A program made the translations under genes and the position numbers. Of a stretch of 22,179 bases of DNA, positions 1 through 16,164 are shown one piece after another. Source of the stretch: a virus. How positions within the stretch are numbered: position 1 is the first letter of the stretch; every line of letters begins with the position of its first letter. Location: IMG/VR virus record IMGVR_UViG_3300006793_005530, positions 1-22,179 of that record. The stretch is one strand, 5' to 3'. The notes beneath the pieces are model-generated. The model did not search any database. It was not told the origin of the DNA and saw nothing but the letters and a program-made list of their open reading frames with translations.

Positions 1-1643
1 ACTAATGCTCTCATCAACATAATTATGTCTGGTAAAGCGTCAAGAACAAGAGGTAAAGCAAATGCAATACCGATTGCTATTTCCTCTCCTAATTTTTTAA
101 TCTCCGGCATTAAATCCGATATTGCATTCATTATGTCATCACCAAATGCGTCAGTTAGTTTAGTTAGCATTATGGTAAGTGGTCGGCCTATCTCAATCAT
201 AGCCTCTGTTATCCTCGACATAAATAGCCTCAAAGATTCTAATGCTGAACCTCCATCCTCAACATTTCTTTGTAATGATTCGGTATATTCATTAGTTGCA
301 CCTGTGGCATTTTGTGTTTCTTCAACTAAGCCATGAAATGATTCACGCTGACTCACTAAAGATGCAATAGCAGTTCCACCCCTCACACCAAACACTTCTA
401 AAATTTGTGTTGTTGTAGCCCCGCTTGCCGCCAACTGGTCTAACACATCACCTAACGATGTGATACCAACAGTTTGTTGTTCGATGGTTCGCAGTAATTC
501 TGTTGATTCTTCCTTCATCTCTTTCTCTTTCGCCGTTACCTGTGATAACTTATGTTGTTGAATAGTTCTTTCTAAATTTAATTCCTGTTCCGATAAAGCA
601 AGAGCCGAGTTTGCTTCTTCTAATCTGGTAATTGTTTTGAGTTCTTGTTCCGTTAAATCTCTATTTTGTCTTGAGGCTCTTTGTCTAATTTGAGCAATAG
701 CAAGATTATTTCTTTGTTGATTGATTGAAGTTTCAGTTAAAGTGTCATTTAGAGCCTTCAATTCAGTTTTGAGCATCATGCTTTCACGGGTTGCTCTATC
801 GAGTTCAATAGTCAAAGACTTGAATTGGCTTTCTGCCGCTTTTCCTGAAGGCGACAAAACCTTGACATTCAAACCTAAATCATTCATGGCTCTCGTAGCA
901 TCAAATGTTGGTTTCAACAATTTGTTGATTGCCATTCTCAAACCTGTTCCGGCAATAGTTCCTCTCAAACCTGCATTACCTAAAGCACCAACTGCGGAGG
1001 CAGTTTCTTGAATACTAATACCTGCGGAGAAAGCGACTGGTGCTACGAATTTTAGACCTTCACCCAAAGAAACAATATCCACATTTGACCGAGTAAATGT
1101 TCTTGTTAATACATCGGACACCAAGCCGAGTTGGTCCATTTCCATGCCGAATGCTTTGACACCTGCAATACCAATGTTAGTTGCAGTTTGAATATCAACT
1201 CCACCGGCAATAGCGAATTTAACAAGGTTCTCCAATGCCCTATCGCTAATCATCTCGTCTGCGGTGACACCTGCAATAGCAAGTTTATTTGCGGCTTCAC
1301 CGACCTCTGCCGCAGTAAATCGTGTGCTTTTTCCTATATCTCGTATCGTGCCTTCTAATTTGTTTAAGTCACTACCCGTTGAACCTAAGATAGCACCTGT
1401 TCTTGCCAAAGTGTCGTTAAATTCAATGAAAGTTCTAACTGACTGATTCAAAAATTGAACCATCTTAGTTGCACCAAATGCGGCAGCACCTACTGCGATA
1501 CCTGCGAAAGACGCTCTGGCAACTGTTCCAAATCTGGAAGCACTACTACCTGCAATATAGAAAGCCTGTGAAAGAGCATTTAGACTGGCTCTCGCTTTCT
1601 TGGTATCAACATTAACGCCAACTCTTGCATCTGTTCCAACCAA
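1..1643 (-). CDS. tail tape-measure protein (partial, runs off left edge)
   Basis: I translated this frame by hand. It stays open from about 1643 to the left edge, giving at least 547 residues. The N-terminal part reads like the PhageMin_Tail/TP901 tape-measure core: alternating Ala/Gly-rich helices such as FTAAEVGEAANKLAIAGVTA, then AFGMEMDQLGLVSDVLTRTF and GLRGTIAGTGLRMAINKLLK. A Gln/Glu/Lys-rich probable coiled coil and a hydrophobic stretch (AIGIAFALPLVLDALPDIIM) follow near the left edge. In this family the protein sets tail length and is threaded through the tail tube. An in-frame TGA lies just upstream, so the best start is TTG at 1643, preceded by GGGGTG at a spacing of 7. No in-frame ATG occurs for roughly the first 60 codons. 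It follows the tail assembly chaperone frame by 35 nt, the canonical order in long-tailed viruses. Identity is confident; the start codon is less so. Confidence 0.88.
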   Translation of the reverse strand, partial: MVGTDARVGVNVDTKKARASLNALSQAFYIAGSSASRFGTVARASFAGIAVGAAAFGATKMVQFLNQSVRTFIEFNDTLARTGAILGSTGSDLNKLEGTIRDIGKSTRFTAAEVGEAANKLAIAGVTADEMISDRALENLVKFAIAGGVDIQTATNIGIAGVKAFGMEMDQLGLVSDVLTRTFTRSNVDIVSLGEGLKFVAPVAFSAGISIQETASAVGALGNAGLRGTIAGTGLRMAINKLLKPTFDATRAMNDLGLNVKVLSPSGKAAESQFKSLTIELDRATRESMMLKTELKALNDTLTETSINQQRNNLAIAQIRQRASRQNRDLTEQELKTITRLEEANSALALSEQELNLERTIQQHKLSQVTAKEKEMKEESTELLRTIEQQTVGITSLGDVLDQLAASGATTTQILEVFGVRGGTAIASLVSQRESFHGLVEETQNATGATNEYTESLQRNVEDGGSALESLRLFMSRITEAMIEIGRPLTIMLTKLTDAFGDDIMNAISDLMPEIKKLGEEIAIGIAFALPLVLDALPDIIMLMRAL

Positions 1644-1678: not shown

Positions 1679-2187
1679 TCACCTTTTACGGTTTGCTCTG
1701 TTTTTTCGTTTGACGCTTTCACTATAAGCGTTTAATAAAAATGTTGCATCTCGTATATCCATATCTCTAAACTCTTTTGGAGTCAAAGATGTATATACTA
1801 AAAATTCATAAAAAGCGAATCCGTTGTCGCTTATTGCGTATTTCCCAATTCCCCCAAAACACCACCACCGTTGATTTCTCCGATGGAGGACATTATAGAG
1901 GAAGATAATGCACCCAAATGTGTTAGAGGTAGTTTAGACATTAAACCCCATGTGATTTCTTTATCGCATTTTTTCATCATTTCACAAATCATAACTAATC
2001 CCAAAGCCTCGGCTTTGTCAGCATCATTTGTGTGCTTTCTAACCGCAGGATGAAACTTCAATGCTTGATACTCCGATGTAGTTAATGGCATTATGTCTAT
2101 GGTGTCTTTTGGAATCCATTCTAAATTAGAAACATCAACTGTTACTGGTTGGTCAGCGTTTTCAAGTGCTTCATTAAGCCATGACAT
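1679..2187 (-). CDS. tail assembly chaperone, -1 frameshift product (gpGT-like)
   Basis: This is the predicted long form of the tail assembly chaperone. The upstream gene ends at 1831. The overlapping -1 frame continues from the slippery site to a TGA at 1679, adding 57 residues (it begins GIGKYAISDN, then GFAFYEFLVY and TSLTPKEFRD, and ends in the basic NRANRKR). The fusion would be about 169 aa. In lambda-like and many other long-tailed phages, a short chaperone (G) and a frameshifted form (GT) are made from this position, between the tube gene and the tape-measure gene. Here the -1 frame has no good start codon of its own near its beginning, which favours frameshifting. The frame, overlap and slippery heptamer are seen directly; the chaperone role is inferred from position and layout. 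Confidence 0.68.
1813..1858 (-). promoter_or_regulatory. programmed -1 frameshift signal
   Basis: In the zero frame the chaperone codons read GTT TTG GGG GAA. The heptamer T TTG GGG (1858 to 1852 on the minus strand) fits the X XXY YYZ rule for tandem -1 slippage. About 19 nt downstream is a perfect 6-bp hairpin, AAGCGA-(CAACGGAT)-TCGCTT (1832 to 1813). The spacer is longer than the 5-9 nt typical of stimulatory structures, so the hairpin's role is uncertain. Confidence 0.62.
1831..2187 (-). CDS. probable tail assembly chaperone, short form (gpG-like)
   Basis: This 118-aa protein lies between a probable tail tube gene and the tape-measure gene, where siphovirus- and myovirus-type genomes carry the tail assembly chaperone. 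It is mostly helical after a short N-terminal section (MSWLNEALENADQPVTVDVS), with a central helix AEALGLVMICEMMKKCD and a Gly-rich C-terminus (GEINGGGVLGELGNTQ) that holds the slippery site. In the family it binds the tape-measure protein during tail assembly. The start is well supported: a TATATGA element lies at 2210-2216, 26 nt upstream of the ATG, so the message is probably leaderless. I infer the function from gene order plus the frameshift, not from a recognised sequence family. Confidence 0.7.
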   Translation of the reverse strand: MSWLNEALENADQPVTVDVSNLEWIPKDTIDIMPLTTSEYQALKFHPAVRKHTNDADKAEALGLVMICEMMKKCDKEITWGLMSKLPLTHLGALSSSIMSSIGEINGGGVLGELGNTQ

Positions 2188-2226: not shown

Positions 2227-2637
2227 TCAAGACTGTCGTGCGAAAGTAAGACCTTCAAATGACGCATTAATCATCAATGCACCCTCTGCACCGGCCTCAA
2301 CTCCCTCAACTGATAAATCAGTGAAAATGCAATTAGTAATTGTATAAGTGTTCGCCCCTACTGCGCCGTCATTGTCAAATTCTAATTCAAACATTGTGTT
2401 ACCTACGAAAGCGGCCATTAAGGTTGCATCATCAACACCCCATGCTCGCTTCAAAGTTCCTGATACTGCGAATAATCCTCTTGTATGTGCGGTAGCAAAA
2501 CTACTACCAAGAGTAACATATTTTCCAGTCTGTGCGGTTAGGCTAAAATCGCCCGATACGAAGGCTTGTATTGCAGTGCCACCCGAAGGGGTCATTTTAA
2601 TTACTGCGCTTGTTCCTGTAAATGCGTGAACTGACAT
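2227..2637 (-). CDS. probable major tail tube protein
   Basis: This 136-aa protein is rich in beta-forming residues, Gly, Thr and Ser and has almost no Cys or Trp. Segments such as AIQAFVSGDFSLTAQTGKYV and FAVSGTLKRAWGV resemble the beta-sandwich tube proteins of long-tailed phages. It sits directly before the chaperone/frameshift unit and the tape-measure gene, the standard place for the tube gene. It has its own likely promoter (TTATAAC, 2662-2668) about 28 nt upstream of the ATG, fitting a highly expressed structural protein made from a leaderless message. I recognise the pattern and the context rather than a specific family; another tail or head decoration protein remains possible. Confidence 0.6.
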   Translation of the reverse strand: MSVHAFTGTSAVIKMTPSGGTAIQAFVSGDFSLTAQTGKYVTLGSSFATAHTRGLFAVSGTLKRAWGVDDATLMAAFVGNTMFELEFDNDGAVGANTYTITNCIFTDLSVEGVEAGAEGALMINASFEGLTFARQS

Positions 2638-2879: not shown

Positions 2880-3710
2880 TTAAACTTCCTTGATTGCCTC
2901 TGTTGCTACAACAGTTGTATTATTCCCATCAATAGACTCTAAGACTGCAAACTGACCTTTCTCATGCTTGCTGACTTTCACCTGTGTAGTAGTAGTACCG
3001 AATACGCTTAAAACGGTTTTCAATGATTCGGTGAAAGCAACTTTGAATGGTTCTCCGTGAATATCCATCTCAAGTGGAGTCCAAGACCTAACTTGTTTGC
3101 CCGACCAATGACCTGACCGAGCCTCGCCCTTCTTATCAAAAGTAATAACCACATACGGGGCTTTGGCAGTCAATTGTTCATGAACTCCTTTTCTTAATTC
3201 TTGAAGTGAAATCGTAGCACTGTGAGTTGCCGGTTCATTATCAAACATTGGAAATAATACCTGACCTTTCTCATTTTTTGGCATGAGCCACCTATCGGGA
3301 ATAATAAGGCAGTCCTCTTCCTCTGCTGGCATGACCTCTGCACCGCCGTTGATTTTGGTTGATATTGAAATTGGTTGTGAAGCATTTGTTGAAATTCTAA
3401 CCATCTCGCCTCTTGACTTGGCTCTTACAATGTCGCCTAATTCTTTTGGGTCAGCCAATAATACACATGGCTCTTTGACTTTCAAACCACTAACCGGCCA
3501 CCTTGTCAGGATTGCTTGCATTGTCTTGGCAACATTGAGTCCACTAATACTAATGCCCTCGTTTTCAAAGAGTATTTTGACTGGCACTGGTGGAGAATCC
3601 ATGCAAACTGCTGATAGCAAATTGGCAAACTCCCCGCCATTAACTTGTATCATACAAGTCCGACTTACTTTGGAGTTAGGTGTCAGCATACCCTCTAACG
3701 GGTAGCCCAC
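2880..3710 (-). CDS. PCNA-like sliding clamp (divergent)
   Basis: A 276-aa protein, slightly longer than the roughly 250 aa of archaeal PCNA. The N-terminal segment (residues 27-62: FANLLSAV, then VKILFENEGISISGLNVAK) has the PCNA layout of helix, strand, and the 'D/N-x-G-I-x-I' turn that normally leads into the alaMD motif. The C-terminal part (PLEMDIHGEPFKVAFTESLKTVLSVF, then TTQVKVSKHEKGQFAVLES) resembles the second clamp domain. In archaea the clamp encircles DNA and tethers polymerase, nuclease and ligase, which fits the helicase, SSB, recombinase and nuclease genes upstream. The GTG at 3710 touches the previous stop (TAGGTG). An ATG at 3689 is an alternative start giving 269 aa. Homology is inferred by eye, and a processivity factor of another fold is possible. 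Confidence 0.5.
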   Translation of the reverse strand: MGYPLEGMLTPNSKVSRTCMIQVNGGEFANLLSAVCMDSPPVPVKILFENEGISISGLNVAKTMQAILTRWPVSGLKVKEPCVLLADPKELGDIVRAKSRGEMVRISTNASQPISISTKINGGAEVMPAEEEDCLIIPDRWLMPKNEKGQVLFPMFDNEPATHSATISLQELRKGVHEQLTAKAPYVVITFDKKGEARSGHWSGKQVRSWTPLEMDIHGEPFKVAFTESLKTVLSVFGTTTTQVKVSKHEKGQFAVLESIDGNNTTVVATEAIKEV

Positions 3711-14391: not shown

Positions 14392-14411
14392 TATATAACA
14401 GTTGTCCTATT
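14392..14411 (-). promoter_or_regulatory. promoter D with AATAGG box
   Basis: The minus strand reads AATAGG, 7 nt, then TTATATAGG. The TATA centre is 26 nt upstream of the ATG at 14369. The box overlaps the end of the helicase gene, whose stop is at 14407. Confidence 0.62.
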
Positions 14412-16164
14412 TTATTTGTCTTTTCAGCCAGTTAGGACATTCCTGTATATTGCCCCTAAACCATGTTGGCAACAAATGACCGTTATTGCGAGCAAACCTT
14501 TGCCACCCACCGTCTAAGATGAACAAGTGTCCTACATCGTCAGGAGTTCTTACTACCCTACCTGCACCTTGAACAATTGACAAAGCCGTTTGAAGTTGAT
14601 ACCATTTTTGACAAGGGGCATTACAAGTGAAACCTGCACCGCATAAATCACCACTATACTTACTCGGAGGCTGATACGGACATGACGGAGTATCTTCATG
14701 CACCTTTCTCCACGCTAACTCATCTTGCATCATGCGCTCTGCTATAACCGCATCATTGGTGGGTAGGTATGGTACTTTACATATCACAAGCCATTCCGCC
14801 AGTTTTCCTTTGAAGTCAAAGCCTTGAGTTACATAAGTTGATATTAAAACCAAATCATCTTTGTCATTAGTAAAAAATTCTTCCAACGCTGATTCTCTTG
14901 CTCTCGCATTTCCATCATGTGTTATTATTCTATCACCGTGACCTCGCTCTGTCAGTCCTTTGACTAACTCTTTTCTTATCGCATGGCTATGAGGAAGAAT
15001 AACCCCCCTCTTGTGAGGAAATTTGTTCATGATAGCATCTATTGCATTCACCTGTCTTGGCAGGGTGTGTTTTCTTTTAGCCCATGACATAGAGCCACAT
15101 GGCGCATAATAGACATTGAAATTTTCACTTGGGAATGGTGACTTTGTGATATTGATATACAGAGTCTTTTGAGCATCTAATCCTAATCCGTGAAGAAATG
15201 TATCAATGTCAAGTATTGTAGCCGATAGGAAAATTCTCTTTTTGGCTACCATTTCCAAAATCTCTGACGCATAATCTCTAACTCTAATTGGTTTCAAACA
15301 AAGATATGTGCCGTATTTGGAGTTATCAAATGAAATATGCACATTGTTTGGTTTGAGTAAAATGTCAAACGCAGTTTCTATTTTGCTAACTGCTTCTCTT
15401 ATCTTTTCAACTTCTTTCTCGTTTACTGTCAAGCCTAAATCATCTTCGGCATCGGACAATACTTTACGGGCTACCTTTATTCTATCCCCTATCTCAACCT
15501 TCCAGTCTTGAGGCGTGAAGTGTGAAGGAAATTTTTGACCTGCGCCAAATATCCTATGCCATTCTTTCTCCGACAATCTAACTTCCAGTAAATCATTCAT
15601 GAAACCCTCCATGTCATGTGCTTCATCAATAATAGCAAAATCCCGTTGGTCGAACTTGGTTCTTCCTTTTATTGCTCTAAACATATACGCAGGGTTGCTA
15701 AGAGTCAGGCGTGCATCCTCTGCCGCCCACCTTTGTTCGTAGTAAGGGCATGGTTCTTCCACATCACGCTTCGCATGGCGACATGAACCCGCTTTAGTCC
15801 AACAAGGGGCTGACTTAGCCGTTCCTGTTCGTACCCAACAAGGGAAGTTATCTCTTCCTCTAACCTCTTCCAGTTTATGTCCGTAGTCGGCTTTGTATTG
15901 GTCTATTAGACCAAGTGAAGGAGTCATTAGATATGCTGATTGAAACTGATTCTGTATTGTCATGGCAACTGCCGATTTACCAATTCCTGTCGGGGCTTGA
16001 AGAACAATGTTATCAAAATCGTCGTTTTGTAAAGCCCAATACATTACAGAGAGGGCATCATCTTGATACTTTCTCGGTGTCGGCATTGGGAAGTCGGGGC
16101 GTATCTCATCCCATTTGTCAGGCAGTTTTGCCTTACTTGGTATATTAATACGGACTACCGACAT
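14407..16164 (-). CDS. XPD/DinG-family (Rad3-like) DNA helicase with Fe-S cysteines
   Basis: A 585-aa superfamily 2 helicase. Walker A is APTGIGKS (57-64). C109, C121, C128 and C139 lie between motifs I and II, where XPD, FancJ and DinG hold a 4Fe-4S cluster. DEAH is at 180-183 (FAIIDEAHD), SAT at 314-316, motif V is ISTYVTQGFDFKG (about 441-453) and motif VI is QGAGRVVRT (532-540). Family members unwind DNA 5' to 3' in repair or replication. Four more cysteines (C495, C508, C514, C518) sit in an insert between motifs V and VI, which I do not remember from standard family members. The ATG at 16164 is 26 nt from TATTTAA (16187-16193). It is the first gene after the fibre region and a small acidic protein gene. 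Confidence 0.88.
   Translation of the reverse strand: MSVVRINIPSKAKLPDKWDEIRPDFPMPTPRKYQDDALSVMYWALQNDDFDNIVLQAPTGIGKSAVAMTIQNQFQSAYLMTPSLGLIDQYKADYGHKLEEVRGRDNFPCWVRTGTAKSAPCWTKAGSCRHAKRDVEEPCPYYEQRWAAEDARLTLSNPAYMFRAIKGRTKFDQRDFAIIDEAHDMEGFMNDLLEVRLSEKEWHRIFGAGQKFPSHFTPQDWKVEIGDRIKVARKVLSDAEDDLGLTVNEKEVEKIREAVSKIETAFDILLKPNNVHISFDNSKYGTYLCLKPIRVRDYASEILEMVAKKRIFLSATILDIDTFLHGLGLDAQKTLYINITKSPFPSENFNVYYAPCGSMSWAKRKHTLPRQVNAIDAIMNKFPHKRGVILPHSHAIRKELVKGLTERGHGDRIITHDGNARARESALEEFFTNDKDDLVLISTYVTQGFDFKGKLAEWLVICKVPYLPTNDAVIAERMMQDELAWRKVHEDTPSCPYQPPSKYSGDLCGAGFTCNAPCQKWYQLQTALSIVQGAGRVVRTPDDVGHLFILDGGWQRFARNNGHLLPTWFRGNIQECPNWLKRQIK

Follow-up and report, generated by a model that had tools for sequence, protein, structure and literature searches.

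A short reading frame in this virus has no start codon of its own near its beginning, and the question that it raises is whether and how it is translated. The window, meaning the whole stretch of DNA that was analysed, is a 22,179-base virus record whose main genes lie on the minus strand. The original prediction assigned it to an archaeal virus, and proposed that a programmed -1 frameshift at T TTG GGG joins a short tail assembly chaperone (TAC) gene to this second frame, as in the lambda G/GT pair. The features on which the analysis turns are these:

3..1643, minus strand: tape-measure protein gene (PF10145, E 5.9e-31; phrog_1533, E 3.9e-54)
1682..1852, minus strand: -1 frame, T-like extension of 57 codons, with its TGA stop at 1681-1679
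1831..2187, minus strand: TAC zero-frame gene (G-like), an ORF of 118 aa
1840..1846, minus strand: third in-phase heptamer, G GGA AAT, found in the window and L002-L005, absent in L006 and L007
1849..1855, minus strand: most likely shift site, G GGG GAA (zero-frame GGG GAA), with G GGR RAN in 31/31 contigs
1852..1858, minus strand: T TTG GGG, the overlapping heptamer named in the original prediction, found in 8/31 contigs
2227..2637, minus strand: probable tail tube protein (phrog_290, E 1.2e-6; PF18906 Phage_tube_2, E 7e-4, below the curated cut-off)
2880..3710, minus strand: PCNA-type sliding clamp of 276 aa, from a model matching Haloferax volcanii PCNA (3ifv) with Z 19.1 over 225 residues

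Gene arrangement at the chaperone locus

The TAC gene is placed between the tail-tube-like gene and the tape-measure gene, which suits a chaperone of the G/GT type. Near its end, the zero-frame codons read GGT GGT GGT GTT TTG GGG GAA TTG GGA AAT ACG CAA TAA. T TTG GGG does occupy 1858-1852 in the right phase. The -1 frame then stays open for the predicted 57 codons, as far as a TGA at 1681-1679, just before the TTG at 1643 from which the tape-measure ORF starts; that ORF then runs off the contig end. From 27 codons upstream of the shift to 14 downstream, the T frame of the window contains no ATG, GTG or TTG, and the earliest start-type codons inside T are a TTG at +22 and an ATG at +30. There is also an ATG overlapping the T stop (1643-1681) in the tape-measure frame, but a TGA closes it after 10 codons; the stretch that holds it seems to be conserved in L004, L006 and L007. 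Elsewhere in the window, positions 14407-16164 encode a DinG/Rad3-like helicase (PF13307, E 8e-20), whose NCBIfam YoaA match (E 1.5e-21) is below the cut-off.

Taken on their own, the heptamer and the open frame are each weak evidence as far as chance is concerned. The 19 window genes (6,828 codons) hold 34 in-phase XXXYYYN heptamers, among them 2 TTTGGGG and 7 TTTGGGN, and 7 of 38 gene-end/frame combinations remain open for at least 50 codons beyond the stop in another frame. Under window codon usage, the probability of G GGG GAA given Leu-Gly-Glu is 0.026, and that of T TTG GGG given Val-Leu-Gly is 0.016. The arrangement rises above chance because it is conserved in relatives.

An AlphaFold2 model of G (pLDDT 78) is suggestive of a tail-assembly-chaperone fold. 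Of the 274 chains aligned, YqbN (3klu) and the HK97 tail assembly chaperone (2ob9) match it best; their Z values, 5.5 and 5.2 respectively, are below 8, the tool's safe level, and both are 8-9% identical to the window G. A Foldseek search of a viral library returned no match at E < 0.001, and several of the named matches are TACs. Neither G, GT nor T matched a chaperone family in Pfam or PHROGs, and nothing was found when the window GT protein and the G part of L028 were compared with phages by tblastn. The frameshift mechanism is not defined by a match to a chaperone family profile. Weak family matches, among them HATPase_c_2 (E 0.007) and Aquarius (E 0.011), were put down to chance.

The -1 frame and the probable shift site in relatives

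A scan of IMG/VR with the window protein yields 6 contigs, and one with an alignment of 7 TACs yields 28. Tape-measure scans add L051, L052 and L066, bringing the collection to 31 contigs, several of them identical or nearly so. In all 31, the G gene is accompanied by a T-like -1 frame (truncated in L027, where the contig ends), and this frame is open and conserved throughout, which supports a lambda G/GT-type -1 frameshift as the kind of event. The T proteins can be aligned from the shift codon onward: G11, R29 and R34 are invariant, the core resembles (M/I)TPxEWRxLDxRD, and identity to the window T goes down to 26%. Substitutions in T, counted in five pairs that we chose from eleven, number 44/26/90 at -1 codon positions 1/2/3 (chi2 40.8, p 1.3e-9). 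At the sequence level, this is the pattern that translation of the frame would leave. The zero-frame tails past the shift site diverge. In the window's clade they read GELGNTQ, GELENTQ or GELEIIPEPQTE, the G stop lying at least 5 codons past the junction, and in most other relatives the tail is absent and the stop comes directly after GAA.

The predicted lack of an own start codon for T holds in the window and in all 6 rows of its clade. Across the group it stands only in part: 11/22 distinct rows, those of the window's clade included, are free of ATG, GTG and TTG between the upstream stop and +14, but a start is found at the junction in a minority, as an ATG at +1/+2 in L028, L029, L042, L043 and L044 and as a GTG at +2 in L034. 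Judging from these alignments, an own start is not shared by the T frames and could be usable in some relatives. Within the window's clade, we found no stops in the -1 frame, no junction lacking a slippery heptamer and no separate starts.

It is in its exact site that the original prediction needs correction. TTTGGGG is in phase, and the window's clade has it without exception (8 contigs), but it is missing from 23/31 contigs, 2 of which have TTTGGGA. At the homologous codon, G GGR RAN is found in 31/31 contigs: as GGGGGAA in 27, as GGGAAAC in 2 (L034, L035) and as GGGAAAG in 2 (L045, L046), the last two being canonical heptamers. Comparison with relatives, the check proposed for the prediction, thus bears out the -1 frame in 31/31 but retrieves TTTGGGG in only 8 and a strict GGGAAAC or GGGAAAG in 4. 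Because only 8/31 keep TTTGGGG as against 31/31 for G GGR RAN, the site first named is probably wrong, and the alignments indicate that the shift site common to all probably lies one codon downstream of it. GGGGGAA departs from the strict X XXY YYZ form. Around the junction of the window's clade (1843-1859), TTTGGGG, GGGGGAA and GGGAAAT neighbour or overlap each other where the hairpin of other relatives, described below, is missing. The L045/L046 junction, TTTGGGAAAG, has two overlapping heptamers, including the lambda-type GGGAAAG, and is also without hairpin.

With the arrangement, the coding character of T and the shift site all conserved across a diverse group of sequences, we predict with high confidence that one gene gives two products through a -1 slip at G GGG GAA (1855-1849). 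We infer that slippage takes place at a rate such that most ribosomes would stay in the zero frame, making the 118-aa G-like chaperone, and a minority would shift back by one base at this heptamer, which is the putative choice among the overlapping sites. The P-site Gly-tRNA would re-pair perfectly on GGG, and the Glu-tRNA would re-pair on GGA via a middle G-U pair. The reliance on a middle G-U pair in the A site speaks against a slip at GGGGGAA. Slipped ribosomes would then read the T frame and produce a 169-aa G-T fusion. By analogy with lambda, the fusion may help to assemble the tail by recruiting tail tube subunits to a tape-measure protein coated with the chaperone.

Downstream structure and competing explanations

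In most relatives outside the window's clade, a hairpin (CCCTCG...CGAGGG) begins 5-6 nt past the heptamer. Because the stem sits in codons for a conserved peptide, synonymous recodings of each sequence were used as the control. Compared with these, the minimum free energy (MFE) has a mean z of -1.5 (18 rows), and the stem score beats 95% of recodings (p < 0.05) in 8/22 rows. Fisher's method gives p 4e-6 for this ad hoc score over 13 rows that we chose, one per lineage. Between L042 and L044, C-G becomes U-A at two wobble positions with the pair kept. Pairs were counted in an alignment (A7) of 14/22 rows; the 8 left out (the window, L003, L004, L006, L007, L051, L045 and L046) do not form the hairpin, and the recoding test took all 22. 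The shuffle control is modest, with paired cells as high in 32/500 shuffles and covariation in 23/500. A hairpin in most relatives is supported beyond coding constraint by these sequence comparisons. For the window itself the tests do not support a downstream structure (MFE p 0.12-0.53; stem p 0.91), and the stem of the other relatives is not present in the window's clade, in L045/L046 or in L066. In L006/L007, a fold of another kind at 42-72 nt reaches p 0.03-0.05. The frameshift stimulator might have been swapped within the lineage, with GGGGGAA plus hairpin in most members and tandem slip sites elsewhere, although we consider this quite unlikely. It is just as doubtful that, as part of such a swap, the window's clade and L045/L046 lost the hairpin and carry the overlapping sites TTTGGGGGAA and TTTGGGAAAG instead. 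Were it true, extended slippery runs would replace RNA structure in setting the G:GT ratio on archaeal ribosomes.

A programmed -1 slip could also take place at T TTG GGG (1858-1852) or G GGA AAT (1846-1840) rather than at G GGG GAA, a possibility that we rate as low but worth keeping in mind. T TTG GGG has the strict X XXY YYZ form, is in phase in 8/8 window-clade contigs, and is seldom expected by chance from its Val-Leu-Gly codons (P 0.016, as above). However, it is not kept in most of the group, TTTGGGN is commonplace in phase with its 7 cases in window genes, and by established pairing rules a Leu-tRNA on UUU would have a third-position mismatch. As for G GGA AAT, a slip there would give the junction peptide ...GVLGELGNYAISDNGF, but the heptamer is lost in L006/L007.

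The remaining explanations dispense with ribosomal slippage altogether. T may be translated on its own beside the G stop, either by ribosomes that terminate and re-initiate or from a start of a non-standard kind. In L042, L043 and L044 the G stop overlaps a T-frame ATG (ATGA), and L028 and L029 have an ATG at +2 and L034 a GTG at +2; because of these start codons at the junction, re-initiation stays a rival in L028, L029, L034 and L042-L044. For the locus as a whole it is highly improbable, as 11/22 distinct rows, including 6/6 from the window's clade, lack any start from the upstream stop to +14, the G stop in that clade is 5 or more codons past the junction, and what is conserved at the junction is a slip run rather than a start codon. 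Transcriptional slippage on GGGGG, generating mRNAs with one extra base, would yield the same fusion. Yet four relatives carry only GGGAAA, and five Gs are a short run for polymerase slippage, so that this origin has a very slim probability. Finally, the frequency of long open frames past window gene ends (7/38) leaves room for a sequencing error, or for a broken gene followed by a frame open by chance. This reading has next to no probability: it is refuted by the presence of the same arrangement in 31/31 contigs together with the third-position bias in T. A -1 slip at G GGG GAA is the explanation that we retain.

Host domain and known or predicted frameshifted chaperones

That the virus infects archaea was part of the original prediction, and we also consider an archaeal virus likely, because the window has a modelled PCNA-type clamp and a relative (G002, 55.5 kb, which holds L028) has RFC and PolB. 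The two-domain length of the modelled 3710-2880 protein fits PCNA; bacterial clamps come close behind Haloferax PCNA (Z 18.9), and the protein has no sequence match in Pfam, NCBIfam or PHROGs. G002 encodes an RFC small-subunit-like protein nearest to that of HCTV-1 (41.8%) and a fragment of family B polymerase (PolB) whose best matches are mostly in haloviruses. The PCNA_N (PF00705) and MCM (PF00493) profiles found nothing in 12/12 records, and a host and provirus search across genome contigs by TAC and tape-measure protein found no relative. Any tie to marine archaea, Poseidoniales or others, is no more than a guess, drawn from what the literature says of viruses with such genes (PMC10768690).

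Several traits are shared by lambda and the window: the order of tail tube, G/T and tape measure, a -1 shift (predicted in the window) shortly before G ends, and a T frame without its own start. The lambda gpG/gpGT frameshift was reportedly described by Levin in 1993 and by Xu, Hendrix and Duda in 2004. The GGGAAAG of L045/L046, at the homologous place, is the lambda heptamer. Lambda differs in that the window has GGGGGAA and TTTGGGG, and no sequence similarity is detectable in the profile searches run. The lambda work is cited in an archaeal virus source (PMC5009743).

Closer in host domain, a -1 TAC shift has been predicted in HVTV-1, HCTV-1, HCTV-2, HCTV-5 and Hardycor1 (PMC5009743, PMC8211752, PMC7911831). 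Going by the published HCTV and HVTV sites (PMC5009743, PMC8211752), the G GGA AAC of HCTV-1 is the site of L034/L035, and the G GGA AAG of HCTV-5 is that of L045/L046. In contrast to these haloarchaeal viruses, the window's lineage mostly has GGGGGAA, with a conserved hairpin in many members, and its hosts may differ. The HF1 group seems to need a +1 shift (PMC7230728). In a Halorubrum tailed virus (OP630574; L047, 2480-3102), the -1 frame of ORF19 gives a T-like match that carries no annotation and lies upstream of the tape-measure gene; this ORF19 region showed no clear slip heptamer. GGGGGAA is also the 'fivetwo' slip motif, described in roughly a thousand chaperones of actinophages (PRFect, PMC10274946). 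There the heptamer is identical and the same argument of G-U re-pairing is made; these phages have bacterial hosts, and are likened to the window by motif only, not by their proteins.

Among the papers searched on magroviruses or marine archaea and programmed ribosomal frameshifting, there was no report for this virus group. With their 31 contigs, the window's relatives add a diverse set of viruses, probably archaeal, to the short list of archaeal tailed viruses with a likely frameshifted chaperone. Their shift site and hairpin are kept over a large sequence distance, and their T domain is overlooked by standard gene calling and family libraries. They offer natural test material for frameshifting by archaeal ribosomes, a subject with little experimental study. 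Because -1 shifts are reported in the chaperones of haloarchaeal viruses, the probable frameshifted chaperone is of an already known type, and the one described here is an ordinary, well-supported case, its slip site moved by one codon.
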